A stretch of 34,504 bases of DNA from a virus (IMGVR_UViG_3300031773_000016:1-34504), one strand, 5' to 3'; positions 3,048-12,940 are shown, counted from the first letter of the stretch. Notes: generated by a model from the sequence alone, not told the origin. Numbers and translations: made by a program.

Positions 3048-3433
3048 TGAAATCGGATGTTACTGAGTTTTTTAGCCATACCGAGAGTCTAACTCCTGAG
3101 AGCTTACTATGGGTTGCAGTAATTGTTCAGGCAATCCACGATGCTCGAATAGATTTTAATGATGTAAAGATATATGAAGCTCCAAAAAGAAGGCATAAAT
3201 ATAAATTTCAAATCACTGATAGTAAGGGTCATTTGTTATCCCAACAAAGATTGAAAAGTTTTTACCAATGCTTAGAAGCTCGTTTGTGGTTTGAAAGACA
3301 ATTAGATGATTATAAAATTGTTTGTGCTTTATCAGGAATGAATGATGAATATATATACCGAATGTATATGAAGGTTATGGATGATGATGACATTGACCCA
3401 GTTGCTATGTTAAAACAATTTATGAAGTATTAA
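3047..3433 (+). CDS. Hypothetical early protein, last gene of the rightward operon
   Basis: 128 residues from a GTG whose first base is the last base of the upstream TAG. The sequence mixes helices with a short beta section (KRRHKYKFQITDSKGHL) and ends with an acidic DDDDIDP segment. No signal peptide or membrane segment. Family not recognised. Its 3' end runs 24 bases into the last gene of the long leftward operon on the other strand, so the two units converge tail to tail with no spacer. Confidence 0.75.
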   Translation: MKSDVTEFFSHTESLTPESLLWVAVIVQAIHDARIDFNDVKIYEAPKRRHKYKFQITDSKGHLLSQQRLKSFYQCLEARLWFERQLDDYKIVCALSGMNDEYIYRMYMKVMDDDDIDPVAMLKQFMKY

Positions 3434-3499
3434 CAATAAAACCAAAAGTAGAATAGCAACATCTATCTTTTCTGGTGGTGGGTTAAAATTCCAACTCAC
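3410..3499 (-). CDS. 29-residue membrane mini-protein
   Basis: Begins at GTG 3499, four bases inside the end of the upstream 21-residue gene. It ends at 3410, inside the opposite-strand early gene. The translation starts MSWNFNPPPEKID and continues with a pure hydrophobic run VAILLLVLLLIL before HKLF, the layout of a single-pass membrane peptide. The coupled start and coherent hydrophobic design support expression. It is the last gene of the leftward operon. A lysis- or membrane-modulating role is possible but not shown. Confidence 0.55.
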   Translation of the reverse strand: MSWNFNPPPEKIDVAILLLVLLLILHKLF

Positions 3500-3561
3500 A
3501 CTGAACTCCAAATAAACAGCATTACTAATACAAATAAAGCTACGTATATTTTAAGTTCCAT
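3496..3561 (-). CDS. 21-residue membrane mini-protein
   Basis: The ATG at 3561 lies within the last codons of the upstream 79-residue gene, and its stop overlaps the next GTG by four bases. The peptide MELKIYVALFVLVMLFIWSSV is nearly all hydrophobic. It looks like a bare transmembrane segment, and nested coupling on both sides argues that it is translated. At this length the call rests on composition and context only. Confidence 0.45.
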   Translation of the reverse strand: MELKIYVALFVLVMLFIWSSV

Positions 3562-3790
3562 TGTTTTTATCTGACTTAATGAAAAGTCTTATTATGAGTT
3601 TTATAAATCTTTTGACATGACCTAGTACAAATTCATTTAAGAACCATCTTATTACACGCATTACGATTAGGATTGGACTAGATAGTACATCAAAAACAAC
3701 CAGTGCTACGTCAACTCCTGTATCAACAATATTGTCTAGATTGAAATATCTCTTAATTCCCTGTTGGGTTCTCTGTGAGGATTTTGACAA
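3551..3790 (-). CDS. Small membrane-associated protein, 79 residues
   Basis: Start chosen at TTG 3790, because a strong GGAGG lies about seven bases upstream. An in-frame GTG at 3838 would add 16 residues but has no good ribosome site. Residues about 23-45 (VDVALVVFDVLSSPILIVMRVI) form one hydrophobic segment and FVLGHVKRFIKLIIRLFIK a second, amphipathic and basic one. The N-terminus is charged. Together this suggests an inner-membrane or membrane-lining protein. It overlaps the upstream secreted-protein gene by 38 bases. Family not recognised. Confidence 0.65.
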   Translation of the reverse strand: MSKSSQRTQQGIKRYFNLDNIVDTGVDVALVVFDVLSSPILIVMRVIRWFLNEFVLGHVKRFIKLIIRLFIKSDKNNGT

Positions 3791-3998
3791 TTCTCTTCCT
3801 CCCCATGTCCATCTCGACTTCAGCCTCCACCTGGACACACTGCATAAATATTCCTTCTTGATCTTCTCCTATATTCTGCATAGCTACTCGTTTGGTCTTA
3901 AGACAATCAGCCATTCCCTCAGTTGGAACTGTTTCAATTATCGAACCGTTAGTTATAAGCAATACTGCGAATAGTGTTTCAATCATGTGATATTCCAT
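3753..3998 (-). CDS. Small secreted or membrane-anchored protein with two cysteines
   Basis: 81 residues, or 77 if the second ATG at 3986 is used. The N-terminus (MIETLFAVLLITNGSI) reads as a signal peptide or anchor. The mature part contains ADCLKTKRVAMQN and FMQCVQVE, two cysteines about 24 residues apart that could form a disulfide in the periplasm. The same layout recurs in the 81-residue gene at 7078-7323 in this cluster, so the two may be distant relatives. It overlaps genes on both sides. Function unknown. Confidence 0.65.
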   Translation of the reverse strand: MEYHMIETLFAVLLITNGSIIETVPTEGMADCLKTKRVAMQNIGEDQEGIFMQCVQVEAEVEMDMGRKRIVKILTENPTGN

Positions 3999-4374
3999 TC
4001 TGTCTTATCTTATCAATTAACATTTCAACATCTATCATACGTTCTTCTATAAATTGTAATTGCATATTTAGTTTTGAAATTTCTGGAATCTCTGCATTAA
4101 CGTGAGTACGCAATTCTTCTTGTGTTTTTGAAAGCCATTCCACTAACATATAAAGCTCATTTACTTGTGGACTGACCATCGTGCCTTTAGGAACACCGTC
4201 TATAAATTCATTGGCTGCTATCATATCTTGTTGCATTAACTGTATCTCTGTTTCCACTCGATTTAATCTTTCAATTACCCCAAAATAGCTCATGGTTCCG
4301 ATTGCGACTGCTGCCAATATTGCTAAAAGATTTTTAGCTGGCATACTTATGTTAGTGGCTTCTGATAATTTCAT
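3979..4374 (-). CDS. Single-pass membrane protein with coiled coil
   Basis: 131 residues. The segment from about 14 to 33 (NLLAILAAVAIGTMSYFGVI) is a transmembrane helix. It is followed by ERLNRVETEIQLMQQDMIAANEF and later EISKLNMQLQFIEERMIDVEMLIDKI, two coiled-coil stretches, giving an N-anchored rod. The design matches the neighbour at 4389-4742, so the pair could be paralogues or a heteromer spanning the envelope. It does not show a spanin lipobox or a holin pattern. Role in lysis or membrane remodelling is inference from its place below holin and endolysin. Confidence 0.7.
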   Translation of the reverse strand: MKLSEATNISMPAKNLLAILAAVAIGTMSYFGVIERLNRVETEIQLMQQDMIAANEFIDGVPKGTMVSPQVNELYMLVEWLSKTQEELRTHVNAEIPEISKLNMQLQFIEERMIDVEMLIDKIRQNGISHD

Positions 4375-4388
4375 AGTTTAGAATGATT

Positions 4389-4742
4389 CTAATTTAGAAG
4401 TGGGTTGTCGTTGGCTGCTTTCAGTTCGTTTATTTTTGCATCAAGATATTCAATGGCTGCACCATTAATTGCAATATCTCCTTTAACAGCTTCTAATGTT
4501 GCTGCAAGAGAACGAACAGCTTCTAATGCTTCGTCATCTCCTTCATCTATACTGTAAATCAAATTGTTAATACGATTGTTTACATCGGTTAGGTCAACTG
4601 TTTGATTGACCACATAATCTTGTCCTTCAAGTGCGTTTAGTCTTGTCTGGAACTCACCCCAAGCATAAAAACCTCCACCAATGGCACATACAACGCCAAT
4701 AAGGCTCGCATAGGTGCTAAGTTTATTAATTAAGTCTGGCAT
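4389..4742 (-). CDS. Single-pass membrane protein with coiled coil
   Basis: 117 residues. A transmembrane segment lies near 12-29 (ASLIGVVCAIGGGFYAWGEF), then LNALEGQDYV and a long helical acidic region (NRINNLIYSIDEGDDEALEAVRSLAATLEAV) likely to be a coiled coil. The start overlaps the end of the acidic secreted protein by 17 bases, with AAAGGA upstream as ribosome site. Architecture is the same as the next gene downstream. Family unknown. The predicted topology puts the coiled coil on one face of the membrane, but which face cannot be told from sequence. Confidence 0.7.
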   Translation of the reverse strand: MPDLINKLSTYASLIGVVCAIGGGFYAWGEFQTRLNALEGQDYVVNQTVDLTDVNNRINNLIYSIDEGDDEALEAVRSLAATLEAVKGDIAINGAAIEYLDAKINELKAANDNPLLN

Positions 4743-6429
4743 CCATTAATCCTTTTAGTTTAATATAAGCTGCATCAGTAGCTGACTTAGCTTCGTTAAG
4801 TTTAATTTGATATTGAACAACAGGATCAGTACCTACTAGGTTAACCTGTGTTCCGTAAATAGTTTTGTCGTAACTAGCTAAACTTACTTGCATAAAGAAA
4901 TCTTGATTACCTTGTGGTAATTGTCTGGTATCAAACAATGCCTGGTTCATGTCAGCATAGCTAGACATATCAGGTTGCATAGCTATCATTTCTCTACTAA
5001 CAACTTCATTAATAACATTCAATGTAACATTTGTTTGTTGTATGCTATCTTTAATCTGAGACTTGATAACTTTCTCTAGTGTAGCTATTTTAATATCTAA
5101 TTCAGATTTTAATTCTGGTTCTGAAACATCCTCTTTGACAGCACTTGGTTCTTCAAGTGGACTTCCCTCAACATCTGCGACTTCAGTTGGCTCCTGCTTA
5201 TCTTCCTCTTGTTGGGTAGGACTTTCGGTTTCAATAGGTTCGTCTGCAACAATGCTTTCGCTATTGGGTTGTTCTTCAATTTCATTTGCTTCTTCCTTTA
5301 TTGGTTCAGCTTCAACAATTTCTTCATAGTATTCTTCTACTTCCTCTATGAACTCTTCCTGCATTTCTTCTGTAAATTCTTCTACAAACATTTCTTCATC
5401 TATAGAAACCATCTCATATACTTCTTCAATAGGTGGTGGTTCATCAAAGAACTCTACTTCTTCAAATATAATATCTTCTGGAATAAATTCTTCCATGATA
5501 GGTTCTGCGTAATAGTCATCTTCAAAGAACTGTTCTTCAAAAAAAAAATCGTCAAGTGCTAAGTATGTATCTTCTATTTCAAATTCTTCTTCTTCAAATA
5601 TCTCAGGATTGAATGAGTATTCAATATCTATGAACTCAGGTATGCCTGGTTCTTCATATAGATATATATCAGTTAGATATAGGTCATCTAAATCATCTTC
5701 AAATGTATCTATAAAGTTGGCAACTTCAGCAATCTCATCCTGTGCAGGACAAGTGGGTGGGTTCTTTTCCCAACAGTATTCAACTGTGGTAACTGTTGTT
5801 GAAGATAAAACATTATAGTTAAGTTTAAGTTCTGGGTCTCGTACATCAACGCCAGCATGACCACCGTTATAAGAGGCGTTGCCTTGTATATCAAAACTAA
5901 ATCTAGCAGTTAATGTACCATGTGTGTTCTCTGCATTAGGTGCAATAATTAATGTATTAGAATAATTATTAAACTGATAGTTATGATTGGTTGTATCTTC
6001 TAAAGTTATACTTTGTGTTGTAGTATCAATACCATTAGTTGCAGTTTGTGTCATCGTAACGGTTGATGCTTGAGGATTCCACCATCTTATATCTGCAGAT
6101 AATTCTGATGTTAGTCCTTGTTGTAATTCTTGTTCAGTTAGTATGCCTTGAGAATTAATTGTAGATTCTGCAAAAGCGTTATCCTTACCAGTCAAATATA
6201 TTGATTCATTTATATCAGAACTATCTGGGAACATAGTTCCTGTCCAACTACCATCATTCCATTGCTGAGATATTAGGTTGCCTGTAGTTACAGGATTACC
6301 AGTTGTAATAGTTGTGGTGCTTGTAGTGTCGCCTGGATTGGGAAAATTTTCAATAGTTACAGTATCAGCACTACTTGAGAATGTTAGTAGGCTCGCCATT
6401 ACTGTCAAGTATATAGCTTTCTTTATCAT
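4726..6429 (-). CDS. Secreted protein with hyper-acidic, aromatic-rich central region
   Basis: 567 residues. A clear signal peptide (KK, then AIYLTVMASLLTF, then SSSA before Asp22) directs export. Residues 22-215 are Thr/Asn/Ser-rich and beta-like, including GMFPDS-type and RWWNPQASTVTMTQTATNG stretches. Cys219 and Cys227 may pair. Residues about 229-437 are overwhelmingly Glu and Asp, interleaved with Phe, Tyr, Ile and Pro up to about 372 and with Pro, Ser and Thr afterwards. The C-terminal 130 residues are a helical domain with a coiled coil near 440-480. A T10 run in the coding strand encodes Phe295-297. The acidic belt could bind cations or basic partners, or mimic DNA or cell-wall polyanions. 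Function unknown. The first 59 bases overlap the upstream gene. Confidence 0.8.
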   Translation of the reverse strand: MIKKAIYLTVMASLLTFSSSADTVTIENFPNPGDTTSTTTITTGNPVTTGNLISQQWNDGSWTGTMFPDSSDINESIYLTGKDNAFAESTINSQGILTEQELQQGLTSELSADIRWWNPQASTVTMTQTATNGIDTTTQSITLEDTTNHNYQFNNYSNTLIIAPNAENTHGTLTARFSFDIQGNASYNGGHAGVDVRDPELKLNYNVLSSTTVTTVEYCWEKNPPTCPAQDEIAEVANFIDTFEDDLDDLYLTDIYLYEEPGIPEFIDIEYSFNPEIFEEEEFEIEDTYLALDDFFFEEQFFEDDYYAEPIMEEFIPEDIIFEEVEFFDEPPPIEEVYEMVSIDEEMFVEEFTEEMQEEFIEEVEEYYEEIVEAEPIKEEANEIEEQPNSESIVADEPIETESPTQQEEDKQEPTEVADVEGSPLEEPSAVKEDVSEPELKSELDIKIATLEKVIKSQIKDSIQQTNVTLNVINEVVSREMIAMQPDMSSYADMNQALFDTRQLPQGNQDFFMQVSLASYDKTIYGTQVNLVGTDPVVQYQIKLNEAKSATDAAYIKLKGLMDARLN

Positions 6430-7081
6430 CTAACCCCTCCAATATTTTAGCGTCTACCTTTTCCATGTATCTAAGAGCTTTTGTGTACTCCTCATAGTCT
6501 GGTCTTTGTTTGTCGTACTTGTTCCATTCCGCTAGAGCTTCACTCCCAATTTTACCATTAAATGGACAGGGAGTTCCTGCATGAGCCATGCTTTGAAATA
6601 CTCTTGCATCTTGACAGAGTATAGATACTGCTGCGACTTTCATATTAAAATCATAGAGAAGTTTAGATAGTTTCATTCTCTCACAATTCATATCACGTTT
6701 AGTAACACCAATAGATGCACCTAATCCAAACTTTTGTAATCCTCCAGAGACCCCTACAACACACAAATCCTGCGACATGGCTGATATACTAGGTGCAGAT
6801 GCAGAAGGAACTACTCTAGTATCTCCTGTATAACTATTGTTATTGGTTGTTGCATTTGTAGTAGTGTTAGAAGATGAACCACTTTGATAATTTGTTGTAT
6901 TTTCAGTTTCAGAATTGTAACCACCTGTAATTGCAGTATTTGAACCTGTGGAATTTACTTGATCGTTTGTGGTTGACCCACTTGAAGTTACATCATTGTC
7001 TGCCATAGCCTGATCCATTAAGGATCCAAAGATCCACAGCATAATTGCAGTTACGCCTACGACTATAATTGTGTTTTTCAT
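6371..7081 (-). CDS. Secreted or anchored Asn/Thr/Ser-rich protein with four cysteines
   Basis: 236 residues. The N-terminus has a hydrophobic run (IIVVGVTAIMLWIFGSL) ending AMA before Asp28, readable as a signal peptide or an uncleaved anchor. Residues about 30-90 are a low-complexity Asn/Thr/Ser/Gly linker. A folded domain follows with Cys107, Cys133, Cys156 and Cys172, including VGVSGGLQKFGLGASIGV and DMNCERMKLSKLLYDFNMKVAAVSILC. The charged C-terminus is coded in the same DNA as the next gene's signal peptide. I believe similar proteins occur in other uncultured marine phages, from memory only. Role unknown; a cell-envelope location is well supported. Confidence 0.75.
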   Translation of the reverse strand: MKNTIIVVGVTAIMLWIFGSLMDQAMADNDVTSSGSTTNDQVNSTGSNTAITGGYNSETENTTNYQSGSSSNTTTNATTNNNSYTGDTRVVPSASAPSISAMSQDLCVVGVSGGLQKFGLGASIGVTKRDMNCERMKLSKLLYDFNMKVAAVSILCQDARVFQSMAHAGTPCPFNGKIGSEALAEWNKYDKQRPDYEEYTKALRYMEKVDAKILEGLDDKESYILDSNGEPTNILK

Positions 7082-7323
7082 ATCTCTTGTCCTGGTTCTT
7101 GTTCTTGTTCAGTCGAGTATCGGCTTTCACAGAAAAACTCATACCCTTTCATATCTCCCTTTTGATTGTGGTTATCAAAAAGGTCTAATGTGAGTTGAAC
7201 TTTATTGTGAAATAAAAACTCTTGGCAAGTAGGTACGGAATCAAATGTAGCTTTATCGTATTGTGTATAAATAACTTGTTCAGAACTACTGAAAAATAGC
7301 ATTGCGGTGATTATGAAGTACAT
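7078..7323 (-). CDS. Small secreted protein with two cysteines
   Basis: 81 residues. The N-terminal MYFIITAMLFFSSSE is a short signal-peptide-like sequence. Cys33 (PTCQEF) and a later cysteine (FFCES) may pair after export. The C-terminus is Glu/Gln-rich. It overlaps the next gene by four bases (ATGA) and lies six bases after the holin gene, so it opens the envelope-directed cluster right below lysis genes. It lacks an obvious lipobox, so I do not call it a spanin. Family unknown. Confidence 0.65.
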   Translation of the reverse strand: MYFIITAMLFFSSSEQVIYTQYDKATFDSVPTCQEFLFHNKVQLTLDLFDNHNQKGDMKGYEFFCESRYSTEQEQEPGQEI

Positions 7324-7329
7324 TCACAA

Positions 7330-7722
7330 TCATTTCTTTTTTAACATCTTAGCTGCTGATCCTACGCCCTTAATGCCAAATGACGCTGAGATAGCAATGT
7401 ATAATAAATGTTGGTAGTATTCAGGAAGCTCTTGTAAAGCAACGAATCCACTTTTAACAAATTCTTGACAACCAGGAATGAAAACTAAAACTGCTGGAGC
7501 AAGTAGGACAACTAAACTGACCTCATCTTTCCAGCTATCTTTCATTTGGTCTACTGCCGATGCTTCCCACGACACTTTACCTGCGATCTGCTGCTCTTTA
7601 AGTGCAGTAGCAGCTTTAATCTCTGTAAGTTTTGCTTCTGATTTGGCTTTCTTAGTTTCTATTACGCCTTTAACCATATCACCAGCGACCCCTAGAAGGG
7701 GTTTAATCAACATCTGTAACAT
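7330..7722 (-). CDS. Holin, GTA-type three-TM family
   Basis: 130 residues. After an N-terminal amphipathic segment (MLIKPLLGVAGDMVKGVIETKK) and a charged coiled stretch comes WKDEVSLVVLLAPAVLVFIPG, a transmembrane helix near 68-85. A second hydrophobic segment is at about 100-117 (PEYYQHLLYIAISASFGIKG), followed by a Lys-rich end. The WKDE, FIPG and SFGIKG elements in this order match the holin family described from gene transfer agents (Pfam 3TM GTA holin). Such holins open the inner membrane to release endolysin. It sits directly after the lysozyme gene, as expected for a lysis pair. Confidence 0.85.
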   Translation of the reverse strand: MLQMLIKPLLGVAGDMVKGVIETKKAKSEAKLTEIKAATALKEQQIAGKVSWEASAVDQMKDSWKDEVSLVVLLAPAVLVFIPGCQEFVKSGFVALQELPEYYQHLLYIAISASFGIKGVGSAAKMLKKK

Positions 7723-10587: not shown

Positions 10588-11757
10588 TTATTCTCCTTTT
10601 AGTGCTGTTACTTCAGCTTCTAATGTTTCTATTCTAGTCATAGCTTCTTGTAATGCTTTGATAGCTTTCATGTAAAGAACAGTATATTTAATACCTTTAA
10701 CATTTTCTTTTTCTTCTTTTACATCACCTATTGCTTTACCTTCTGGTATAGTATCTCCATCTTCATAAAGAGTTCCAAATTCTGAGGAACTTAAAACGTC
10801 TGATGAATTTGGTTTAGCTTCATCAACTAATTTAGGGCAAACGGATTCTAATTCTTGAGCTACCAAACCTATTTGAACTTTTGCTTTATCCTCACCGTAT
10901 TTTCTAACATCATCTTTTCTTTTAAAGTTTCTAACTTTAAGAGATTTAATATCATTCCATTGAGAATTAGCATCGGTTATGTTTTGTTTAATTCTTTCGT
11001 CCGAATATGCTCCATAACTATTATCGTGGTTCTTAACATCTCCATCACCATAAACAACAAATCTTACATTCCAACTACTTCCATCATAGGCTTGTCCAAC
11101 AAAGAAAAAGTTATCTGATCCACTATCAGGATCATCAGCACTATATAAAACTTGCATACCATAAGGTGAGGATGCATGAGCATTTTCAACTTTAAAGCTA
11201 TAAGTATTTTCACTGCTTTTCATATGAAGTGTTGCATCAGGACTATCTTCAAGAATACCAACACGGTCAGTACCACTATTTACAAATATTGCGTGACTTT
11301 GATTATTAGACTCTACTCGGAAGTCTATGTCACCTGAATCTTCATTAAATACAGTCAAATCTTTTTTCATATAGATTCTGCTTGTACTTGTACCATTTAC
11401 CATAGTATCAAGATAGAATTTACCACTTTCATTACCATTAGATGCATCTTCAATTCTTGAATACATCATAAGATAATTTTCTTCTTCTTGGGCGTCATTA
11501 GTGTTGGCAAAATCTATTCTACCAACTAAATCTTCATCCGCTGCAGAACTAGAGTTTCTAAACATTCTAATATAAGGCCCGTGACTAGCATCAGCATCTG
11601 TTGATATTAGTGAGAGTGTCTTTTCATTACCCGATGTTGTAATTGTACTTCCAGCTGTTGCAGTAAACGCACCATCTTTCAATGTTACACTATCTATGGC
11701 TACGCCATTTGCACTAGTATTTTCACTAATAGTGTCTACTTTAATTTCACTACTCAT
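10588..11757 (-). CDS. Tail fibre with S74 auto-cleaving chaperone domain
   Basis: 389 residues. The N-terminal docking module matches that of the next gene. The middle is a beta-rich shaft. SDERIKQNI near residues 252-260 begins the S74 intramolecular chaperone, with the conserved Ser252 and Lys257 pair that cuts the chaperone off after trimer folding; QIGLVAQELE and the terminal coiled coil (IKALQEAMTRIETLEAEV) complete it. The mature fibre would therefore end near residue 252. It overlaps the DUF6447-like gene by eight bases. Confidence 0.92.
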   Translation of the reverse strand: MSSEIKVDTISENTSANGVAIDSVTLKDGAFTATAGSTITTSGNEKTLSLISTDADASHGPYIRMFRNSSSAADEDLVGRIDFANTNDAQEEENYLMMYSRIEDASNGNESGKFYLDTMVNGTSTSRIYMKKDLTVFNEDSGDIDFRVESNNQSHAIFVNSGTDRVGILEDSPDATLHMKSSENTYSFKVENAHASSPYGMQVLYSADDPDSGSDNFFFVGQAYDGSSWNVRFVVYGDGDVKNHDNSYGAYSDERIKQNITDANSQWNDIKSLKVRNFKRKDDVRKYGEDKAKVQIGLVAQELESVCPKLVDEAKPNSSDVLSSSEFGTLYEDGDTIPEGKAIGDVKEEKENVKGIKYTVLYMKAIKALQEAMTRIETLEAEVTALKGE

Positions 11758-11923: not shown

Positions 11924-12940
11924 TTATCCTTCTAATGCTGCTATTCTTGCTTCTAGTTCTTGTATAGTTTTTACCATCAATGGTACAAGTTTTGATTGGT
12001 CTATACCTTGAGGTTCAATAAAAGTTTGCTCGTCTCCATCTTCATCTATTTCAGTTCTTGTTGCATCTTTTGCTCCACGCACAGCTTCAGGAACAATACT
12101 TGATACTTCGTGTGCTATAAAGCCATCCATTAAAGTATTTGTATCATCAGCAATCCAATTAAATCTAGCAGGTTTTAGTTGTTTTAATCTTGTTGTAGCA
12201 TCCCAAGTGTAATCTACATTTTCTTTTAATCTATAATCTGAGGAGGTAGCAAAAGCTGTGTTACTTCCATCATTAGTTATCCCACCTACAAGAGTTCCAC
12301 TTGCGTTTATACATCTTAAATTATGTATAGTGCCAGTATCAGAACTATTAGTATGAACCATAGCATTTAAAGCATGACTAATTGTGTAAAGATTAAATAA
12401 ACCAGCAGAAGATGTGCCACCTATTGATACATTACCAGTACTTGCAATAGACACTCTCTCAGCACCACCATTGTAAAATTTTAATGAGTTTTGATTATGA
12501 TTATAAACTATACGACCAGCATCATTGTCACCATCGTCACCCCAGTTAATACTGCCATCAGAAGTGTTGCCTGATAAAATTGTCATACCACTATCAGCAG
12601 AACCTTCTATAACTAAAGCATCTGCCCAAGCATCAATAGAACCACCACTATCTGATTCTCTAATATGTAATCCAATACCTAAATCAGGAGTGGTTATCAT
12701 TCCCACTCGGTTATTGCCACCATCAACAAATAGCATATGAGTATTACCATTAGATTCTACTCGGAAGTCTATGTCTGCTGAGCCTTCGTTTATTGCAAAC
12801 TCTCCTGCTGTAATAGATGCTATGTTTACACCGCCAGATTCTATTACTAGCGTATCATCTGTATTAGACGATATACTGGTATCTGCATCATCATCAAAGT
12901 CAATTTTATTATTAACTCCGTCTATTTGTATTCCTGCCAT
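11924..12940 (-). CDS. Tail fibre with S74 auto-cleaving chaperone domain
   Basis: 338 residues. Residues 1-230 are a beta-rich, Asp/Asn/Ser-rich shaft with repeated motifs (ADIDFRVESNGNTHMLFVDGGNNRVGM and YNGGAERVSIASTGNVSIGG). SDYRLKENV near 234-242 starts the S74 domain (Ser234, Lys239), followed by TRLKQLKPARFNWI and GFIAHEVSSIVPEAV, then an ending coiled coil (MVKTIQELEARIAALEG). The DIDFRVES block recurs in the next S74 fibre and is shared at DNA level over 20 bases (12756-12775 and 11312-11331). Confidence 0.92.
   Translation of the reverse strand: MAGIQIDGVNNKIDFDDDADTSISSNTDDTLVIESGGVNIASITAGEFAINEGSADIDFRVESNGNTHMLFVDGGNNRVGMITTPDLGIGLHIRESDSGGSIDAWADALVIEGSADSGMTILSGNTSDGSINWGDDGDNDAGRIVYNHNQNSLKFYNGGAERVSIASTGNVSIGGTSSAGLFNLYTISHALNAMVHTNSSDTGTIHNLRCINASGTLVGGITNDGSNTAFATSSDYRLKENVDYTWDATTRLKQLKPARFNWIADDTNTLMDGFIAHEVSSIVPEAVRGAKDATRTEIDEDGDEQTFIEPQGIDQSKLVPLMVKTIQELEARIAALEG

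Follow-up and report, generated by a model that had tools for sequence, protein, structure and literature searches.

Two modules of exported proteins at the lysis genes of a pelagiphage-like podovirus: possible lipoprotein-free counterparts of spanins

Background

Most phages use lipoprotein-based spanin machinery. Two-component spanins are represented by lambda Rz/Rz1 and T7 gp18.5/gp18.7, and unimolecular spanins by T1 gp11. Disruptins are cationic phage peptides that disrupt the outer membrane. This study concerns nine consecutive open reading frames (ORFs) that occupy positions 3410-7323 on the minus strand of a 34,504-base stretch of viral DNA (IMGVR_UViG_3300031773_000016:1-34504; this whole stretch is called the window), downstream of a lysozyme gene and a holin-like gene. 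From its gene content and nearest matches, the window looks like a pelagiphage-like podovirus. Each ORF is named after the number of residues in its product (Table 1). About 13% of surveyed phages, many marine cyanophages among them, have no identifiable spanin, and it is an open question how these phages breach the outer membrane (PMC6139136).

The cluster consists of two modules, A (g236>g567>g117) and B (g131>g81b), that repeatedly come together. We put the chances at about even that it is the envelope-breaching end of the lysis module, doing the job of spanins without lipoproteins. Neither module is described as a lysis system in the literature open to search, subscription papers lying outside it.

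Results and discussion

Gene order and distribution of the two modules

The cluster is not one nine-gene set. Loci were gathered from IMG/VR, GTDB genomes, and phage records (239 in all), and profiles were built from them. The order g236>g567>g117 is kept in all 110 unique loci that hold the three genes, and g81b lies directly behind g131 in 119 of 137 copies of g131. Module B can be found upstream of module A, downstream of it, between g236 and g567 (8 loci), or between g567 and g117 (HTVC115P). Protein distances are correlated with r of 0.87-0.93 within the trio and 0.60-0.83 between the trio and the pair. Because the order of the trio is fixed, the position of the pair varies, and the distance correlation is weaker across the two, A and B are considered to be separate modules.

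A hotspot at which unrelated small membrane morons have come to share a late locus by chance is highly unlikely. The narrow distribution of g79, g21, and g81a would fit such a hotspot, but it would not account for the invariable trio, the fixed pair, the repeated re-association of A and B, or the correlated distances within A.

About 40 pelagiphage records have module B, among them HTVC010P, the T7-like HTVC019P group, and Skadi; homologues of g131 are found in 43 phage records and those of g81b in 39. Module A is found in Mosig (a 141-kb Kyanoviridae phage), HTVC023P, HTVC033P, Baldr, HTVC202P, HTVC115P, and S28-C10, and g236 has more distant relatives in Roseobacter phages and one spring-water contig. 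IMG/VR contains at least 598 confirmed stretches related to g236, so this marine module is common, although it has gone unannotated. A cellular origin of g236 was considered and rejected: the matches are scattered over contigs of marine metagenome-assembled genomes with assignments to unrelated phyla, are most likely phage sequence, and include none titled as a SAR11 genome.

Exchange at the terminase and at the T7 spanin locus

The strongest evidence for a lysis role of both modules is that they exchange in the same slot in two lineages; equivalence of A and B does not follow from this. In HTVC111P and HTVC026P, g131-g81b lies between a conserved small gene and TerL. HTVC202P has g236-g567-g117 in the matching interval, just before a TerL with 95% identity to the HTVC111P TerL, and its gp23 is 70% identical to the HTVC111P counterpart and 91% identical to HTVC026P gp24. 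The second lineage is T7-like. Here g131-g81b lies just before the small-terminase gene and TerL in HTVC019P, S35-C6, and HTVC041P, and g236-g567-g117 has this position in S28-C10. In T7 itself the holin, the small terminase, and the spanins 18.5/18.7 lie between the tail fibre and TerL.

Lysis genes are recurrent neighbours of module A. Among the 53 unique loci of g236 whose flanks reach 2.5 kb or more upstream and 4.5 kb or more downstream, an endolysin is found in 24 (12 lysozyme, 6 amidase, and 6 peptidase M15, three unrelated chemistries), a holin-like gene in 22, and one or the other in 30, these counts being lower bounds set against no formal background. The holin-like label of phrog_2524 and phrog_38283 was assigned in this analysis, and of the three groups called holin-like only one has a match to a named family of holins. 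In the window, both an endolysin and a holin-like gene are immediately upstream of the nine ORFs.

Comparison with spanins

The cluster resembles two-component spanins in location and in plan. The locus in the T7-like relatives is the same, the cluster lies in the lysis cassette, adjoining a holin-like gene and an endolysin, and g131 has the predicted order transmembrane (TM) segment, helix, linker, helix, with a small overlapping partner gene. Unlike two-component spanins, the cluster has no lipoprotein partner and no detectable sequence similarity to them, and module A adds a protein with a sugar-binding fold and a four-Cys protein. With unimolecular spanins such as T1 gp11 it has in common the proposed role in breaching the outer membrane, but the window has no protein with a lipobox and a C-terminal TM segment.

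A six-frame lipobox scan, which recovered the positive controls T7 18.7 and lambda Rz1, found under strict rules a single 35-residue antisense ORF in the whole window. The scan thus gave no coding-strand lipoprotein in the window and hence no outer-membrane spanin (o-spanin), and spanin profiles had no significant match to g131, g117, or g81b. The initial annotation had recognised no classical spanin. Membership of the spanins is not claimed here, because the lipoprotein feature was looked for and was absent.

Proteins of module A

The g236 protein has an N-terminal signal or anchor, a Ser/Thr/Asn-rich stretch, and a domain of about 85 residues. Four Cys (107, 133, 156, and 172) are invariant across 93 aligned sequences, and the ratio of nonsynonymous to synonymous substitution rates (dN/dS) is 0.10-0.17. 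Its low-complexity stretch SGSNTxIxGGY...TYQSGSSS is conserved, which would suit a role in remodelling the cell surface or in aggregation, with g236 and g567 forming a curli-like surface fibre or adhesin. Curli clusters, of the type VIII secretion system, are present in HTVC023P-type phages, and like the present cluster they are multi-gene exported sets in SAR11 phages and horizontally mobile (PMC9599517). However, a Pfam search found no CsgA, CsgF, or CsgG homologue among the proteins, and the set has no gene for an outer-membrane pore, so that a surface fibre is quite unlikely.

The g567 protein is modelled by AlphaFold as a beta-sandwich at about residues 20-217 (predicted local distance difference test, pLDDT, mostly >80), followed by an acidic disordered linker at about 250-440 and C-terminal helices. 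The composition is strongly acidic, with 121 Asp+Glu and 24 Lys+Arg. Structure comparison with the PDB places residues of about 43-207 closest in fold to sugar-binding domains: that of Fbs1 gives Z 13.7 and a root-mean-square deviation of 3.0 over 155 aligned residues, and CBM16, a carbohydrate-binding module (CBM), gives Z 11.3. The model thus assigns the N-terminal domain to the CBM/lectin jelly-roll fold, a fold that alone is no proof of sugar binding. Sequence identity to the CBM and Fbs1-type beta-sandwiches is about 10-13%, and unlike them the g567 domain is fused to the long acidic linker and helices. Matches of the domain in the viral structure library BFVD are mostly unnamed or tail-fibre proteins.

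The main rival to a lysis function comes from this domain. Held by g117 and g236, g567 could coat lipopolysaccharide (LPS) or another surface glycan, and by such receptor masking or superinfection exclusion block adsorption and stop progeny from sticking to debris. The fold of an exported protein suits this role, homologues in HTVC033P and S28-C10 are annotated as carbohydrate-binding, and the copies in Mosig, Baldr, and HTVC202P are not beside an annotated endolysin. On the other hand, masking leaves unexplained the recurrent endolysin and holin neighbours, with their three chemistries, and the exchange with module B at the T7 spanin locus. The gene position also points to late expression, after the time for early exclusion. 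We consider masking or exclusion unlikely.

Since tail fibres also carry sugar-binding beta-sandwiches, as the BFVD matches show, the proteins might instead belong to the virion or act in entry, and the late operon position would allow this. Of the readings weighed here this is the least probable: structural proteins seldom carry N-terminal Sec signals and membrane anchors, and no notable structural match was found in PHROGs or Pfam.

The third protein, g117, has a TM segment and a coiled coil, and Asn-Pro-Leu (NPL) occurs within the last 10 residues in 114 of 120 unique homologues. Searches of PDB sequences with the profiles of g236, g567, and g117 gave nothing credible; the matches of g567 and g117 were rejected as low-complexity or coiled-coil artefacts. 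Pfam gives no support for the labels "transport protein tonB", "OmpA family", and "DUF2730" that relatives carry. Pfam and PHROGs searches with all of the cluster proteins returned nothing beyond weak matches and families of unknown function.

Proteins of module B

In a single-sequence AlphaFold model (mean pLDDT 76), g131 has a TM segment at 16-34, a helix at 13-59, a linker, and a second helix at 69-127. It is thus predicted to be a type II inner-membrane protein with periplasmic helical segments, which fits the plan of inner-membrane spanins (i-spanins). The initial annotation had noted two matched TM-plus-coiled-coil plans, and this holds for g131 by the model and for g117 from sequence only. 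An hhalign comparison of the g117 family (L131:8233-8556) with the g131 family (L240:5001-5366) gave a probability of 46% over 29 membrane-proximal columns; this is suggestive only, and the membrane-proximal helices of the two families may be distantly related. The same method found nothing for g117 against T7 18.5 and lambda Rz. The partner gene g81b is among the most conserved of the cluster (dN/dS 0.02-0.07).

Proposed function

In the scheme that we infer, including the in-cell topology, every contact, the bound glycan, and the membrane-breaking step, each module would supply an inner-membrane part. The g131 protein would be an inner-membrane protein with a periplasmic two-helix part as in i-spanins, and g81b its small Cys-containing partner. 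In module A, g117 would be the second inner-membrane coiled coil, with the near-invariant NPL tip docking onto exported partners. The exported g567 would hold a glycan (murein or LPS core) with its sugar-binding-fold domain, its acidic linker of about 200 residues would span the periplasm to reach g117, and g236 would be a disulphide-bonded exported partner. With the wall breached by holin and endolysin, the anchored complexes would pull or fuse the inner and outer membranes, freeing the virions.

Several results weigh against this scheme. A and B are together in the window and in many metagenomic contigs, so neither is simply an alternative to the other. No significant PHROG or Pfam spanin match was found for g131, g81b, or g117: the E values to PHROG Rz-like spanins are 0.5 for g131 and 0.11 for g117, while the T7 18.5 control gives 5e-64, and 6e-7 to Pfam Phage_lysis. 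The resemblance to i-spanins is common to any protein with a TM segment and helices, and the g131 model comes from one sequence. Spanins are not known to contain a sugar-binding domain. Finally, in Mosig and HTVC115P module A lies far from any annotated endolysin, and the regions retrieved for Baldr and HTVC202P contain no annotated endolysin.

The initial annotation had proposed a coordinated envelope system. Its tie to lysis is supported by the gene order, the neighbouring endolysins of differing chemistry, the T7 spanin locus, and the absence of lipoproteins; its extent is not, as modules A and B move independently. It had named virion-protein matches and lack of co-occurrence in relatives as what would speak against it, and the check found that the genes co-occur and have no notable virion match in PHROGs or Pfam, so the proposal is not refuted. 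It had described neither the split into two modules, nor the four-Cys domain of g236, nor the lectin/CBM-like domain of g567.

A wider claim, which we hold only tentatively, is that the cluster represents a new class of lipoprotein-independent machinery for outer-membrane disruption. This class would unite a coiled coil of the inner membrane, tipped with NPL, with a sugar-binding protein that spans the periplasm and a protein with four Cys, would be widespread in marine phages, and would be interchangeable with a second lipoprotein-free pair. The modules are named, conserved, and cloneable candidates in phages of the most abundant bacterium of the ocean.

Layout of the cluster and the small flanking genes

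The nine ORFs have the sizes originally described, and they overlap at seven of the eight junctions, in keeping with the near-general overlap that had been noted; the sole gap, of 14 nucleotides, is between g117 and g131. A convergent plus-strand gene meets the run at 3410. A scan for promoters and terminators found no excess over shuffles.

Table 1. Features of the cluster and the adjoining lysis genes in the window
Feature	Position	Strand	Description
g81a	7078..7323	-	81 residues; probably exported; Cys pair C33, C65
g236	6371..7081	-	236 residues; module A; signal/anchor and four-Cys domain
g567	4726..6429	-	567 residues; module A; signal peptide, predicted sugar-binding-type beta-sandwich, acidic linker, C-terminal helices
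g117	4389..4742	-	117 residues; module A; N-terminal TM and coiled coil, C-terminal Asn-Pro-Leu
g131	3979..4374	-	131 residues; module B; N-terminal TM, two helices and linker (i-spanin-like plan, predicted)
g81b	3753..3998	-	81 residues; module B; probably exported; Cys pair; overlaps g131
g79	3551..3790	-	79 residues; basic single-TM protein; TTG start
g21	3496..3561	-	21-residue hydrophobic peptide; probable gene
g29	3410..3499	-	29 residues; GTG start; ORF only, unsupported as gene
Holin-like protein (phrog_2524)	7330..7722	-	no assigned function; lysis context; homologues adjoin module B in HTVC019P, HTVC010P
Endolysin, phage lysozyme	7732..8217	-	PF00959 1.7e-7; phrog_7 endolysin 9e-14

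All nine products had been credited with a signal peptide or membrane segment. Hydropathy supports an N-terminal segment of this kind in seven (g236, g567, g117, g131, g79, g21, and g29) and is marginal in both 81-residue proteins, which carry the two Cys pairs (C33/C65 and C32/C54). Not all nine are supported as genes. For the first seven (g81a to g79) dN/dS is 0.02-0.26 in all comparisons but one, the outlier being g79 against a very close relative (0.38 at a dS of only 0.06); purifying selection acts on these seven ORFs in relatives. Behind g79, the motif (M/L/V)E(I/L)KIY...W is found in four variants, and g21 is probably a real gene. By the same kind of comparison g29, which is seen solely in near-identical contigs, is unsupported as a gene.

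The basic g79 protein, with its single TM segment, is strongly conserved (SSPILIVMRVVRWFLNEFVLGHIKRFIK in relatives). Its profile finds 37 loci, dN/dS is 0.04-0.09 against all but the closest relative, and relatives have ATG at the place of the start codon. By analogy it is like disruptins in being small and net positive, but unlike them it carries a hydrophobic TM segment. A membrane-active lysis accessory is a possible function. The g81a profile finds 92 loci (dN/dS about 0.2), and phage isolates gave no match. Further families of small exported proteins with a Cys pair lie near module A at the place that g81a has in the window (L232:2455-2679 and L207:4035-4304), and these are perhaps functional stand-ins for it.

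Other genes were seen around the modules. In the window, adjacent proteins at 10588-11757 and 11924-12940 have, by eye only, the look of a C-terminal intramolecular chaperone (peptidase S74-type), which suggests two tail-spike genes. Next to module A, many contigs have a member of a 225-residue family, phrog_3704 (labelled "ferredoxin"; no Pfam match), seen at L233:3996-4673 and in 33 further neighbours. In HTVC115P, gp46 (L135:11243-11692), annotated as a toxin-activating lysine-acyltransferase, is about 2 kb from the module and adjoins a 685-residue protein.

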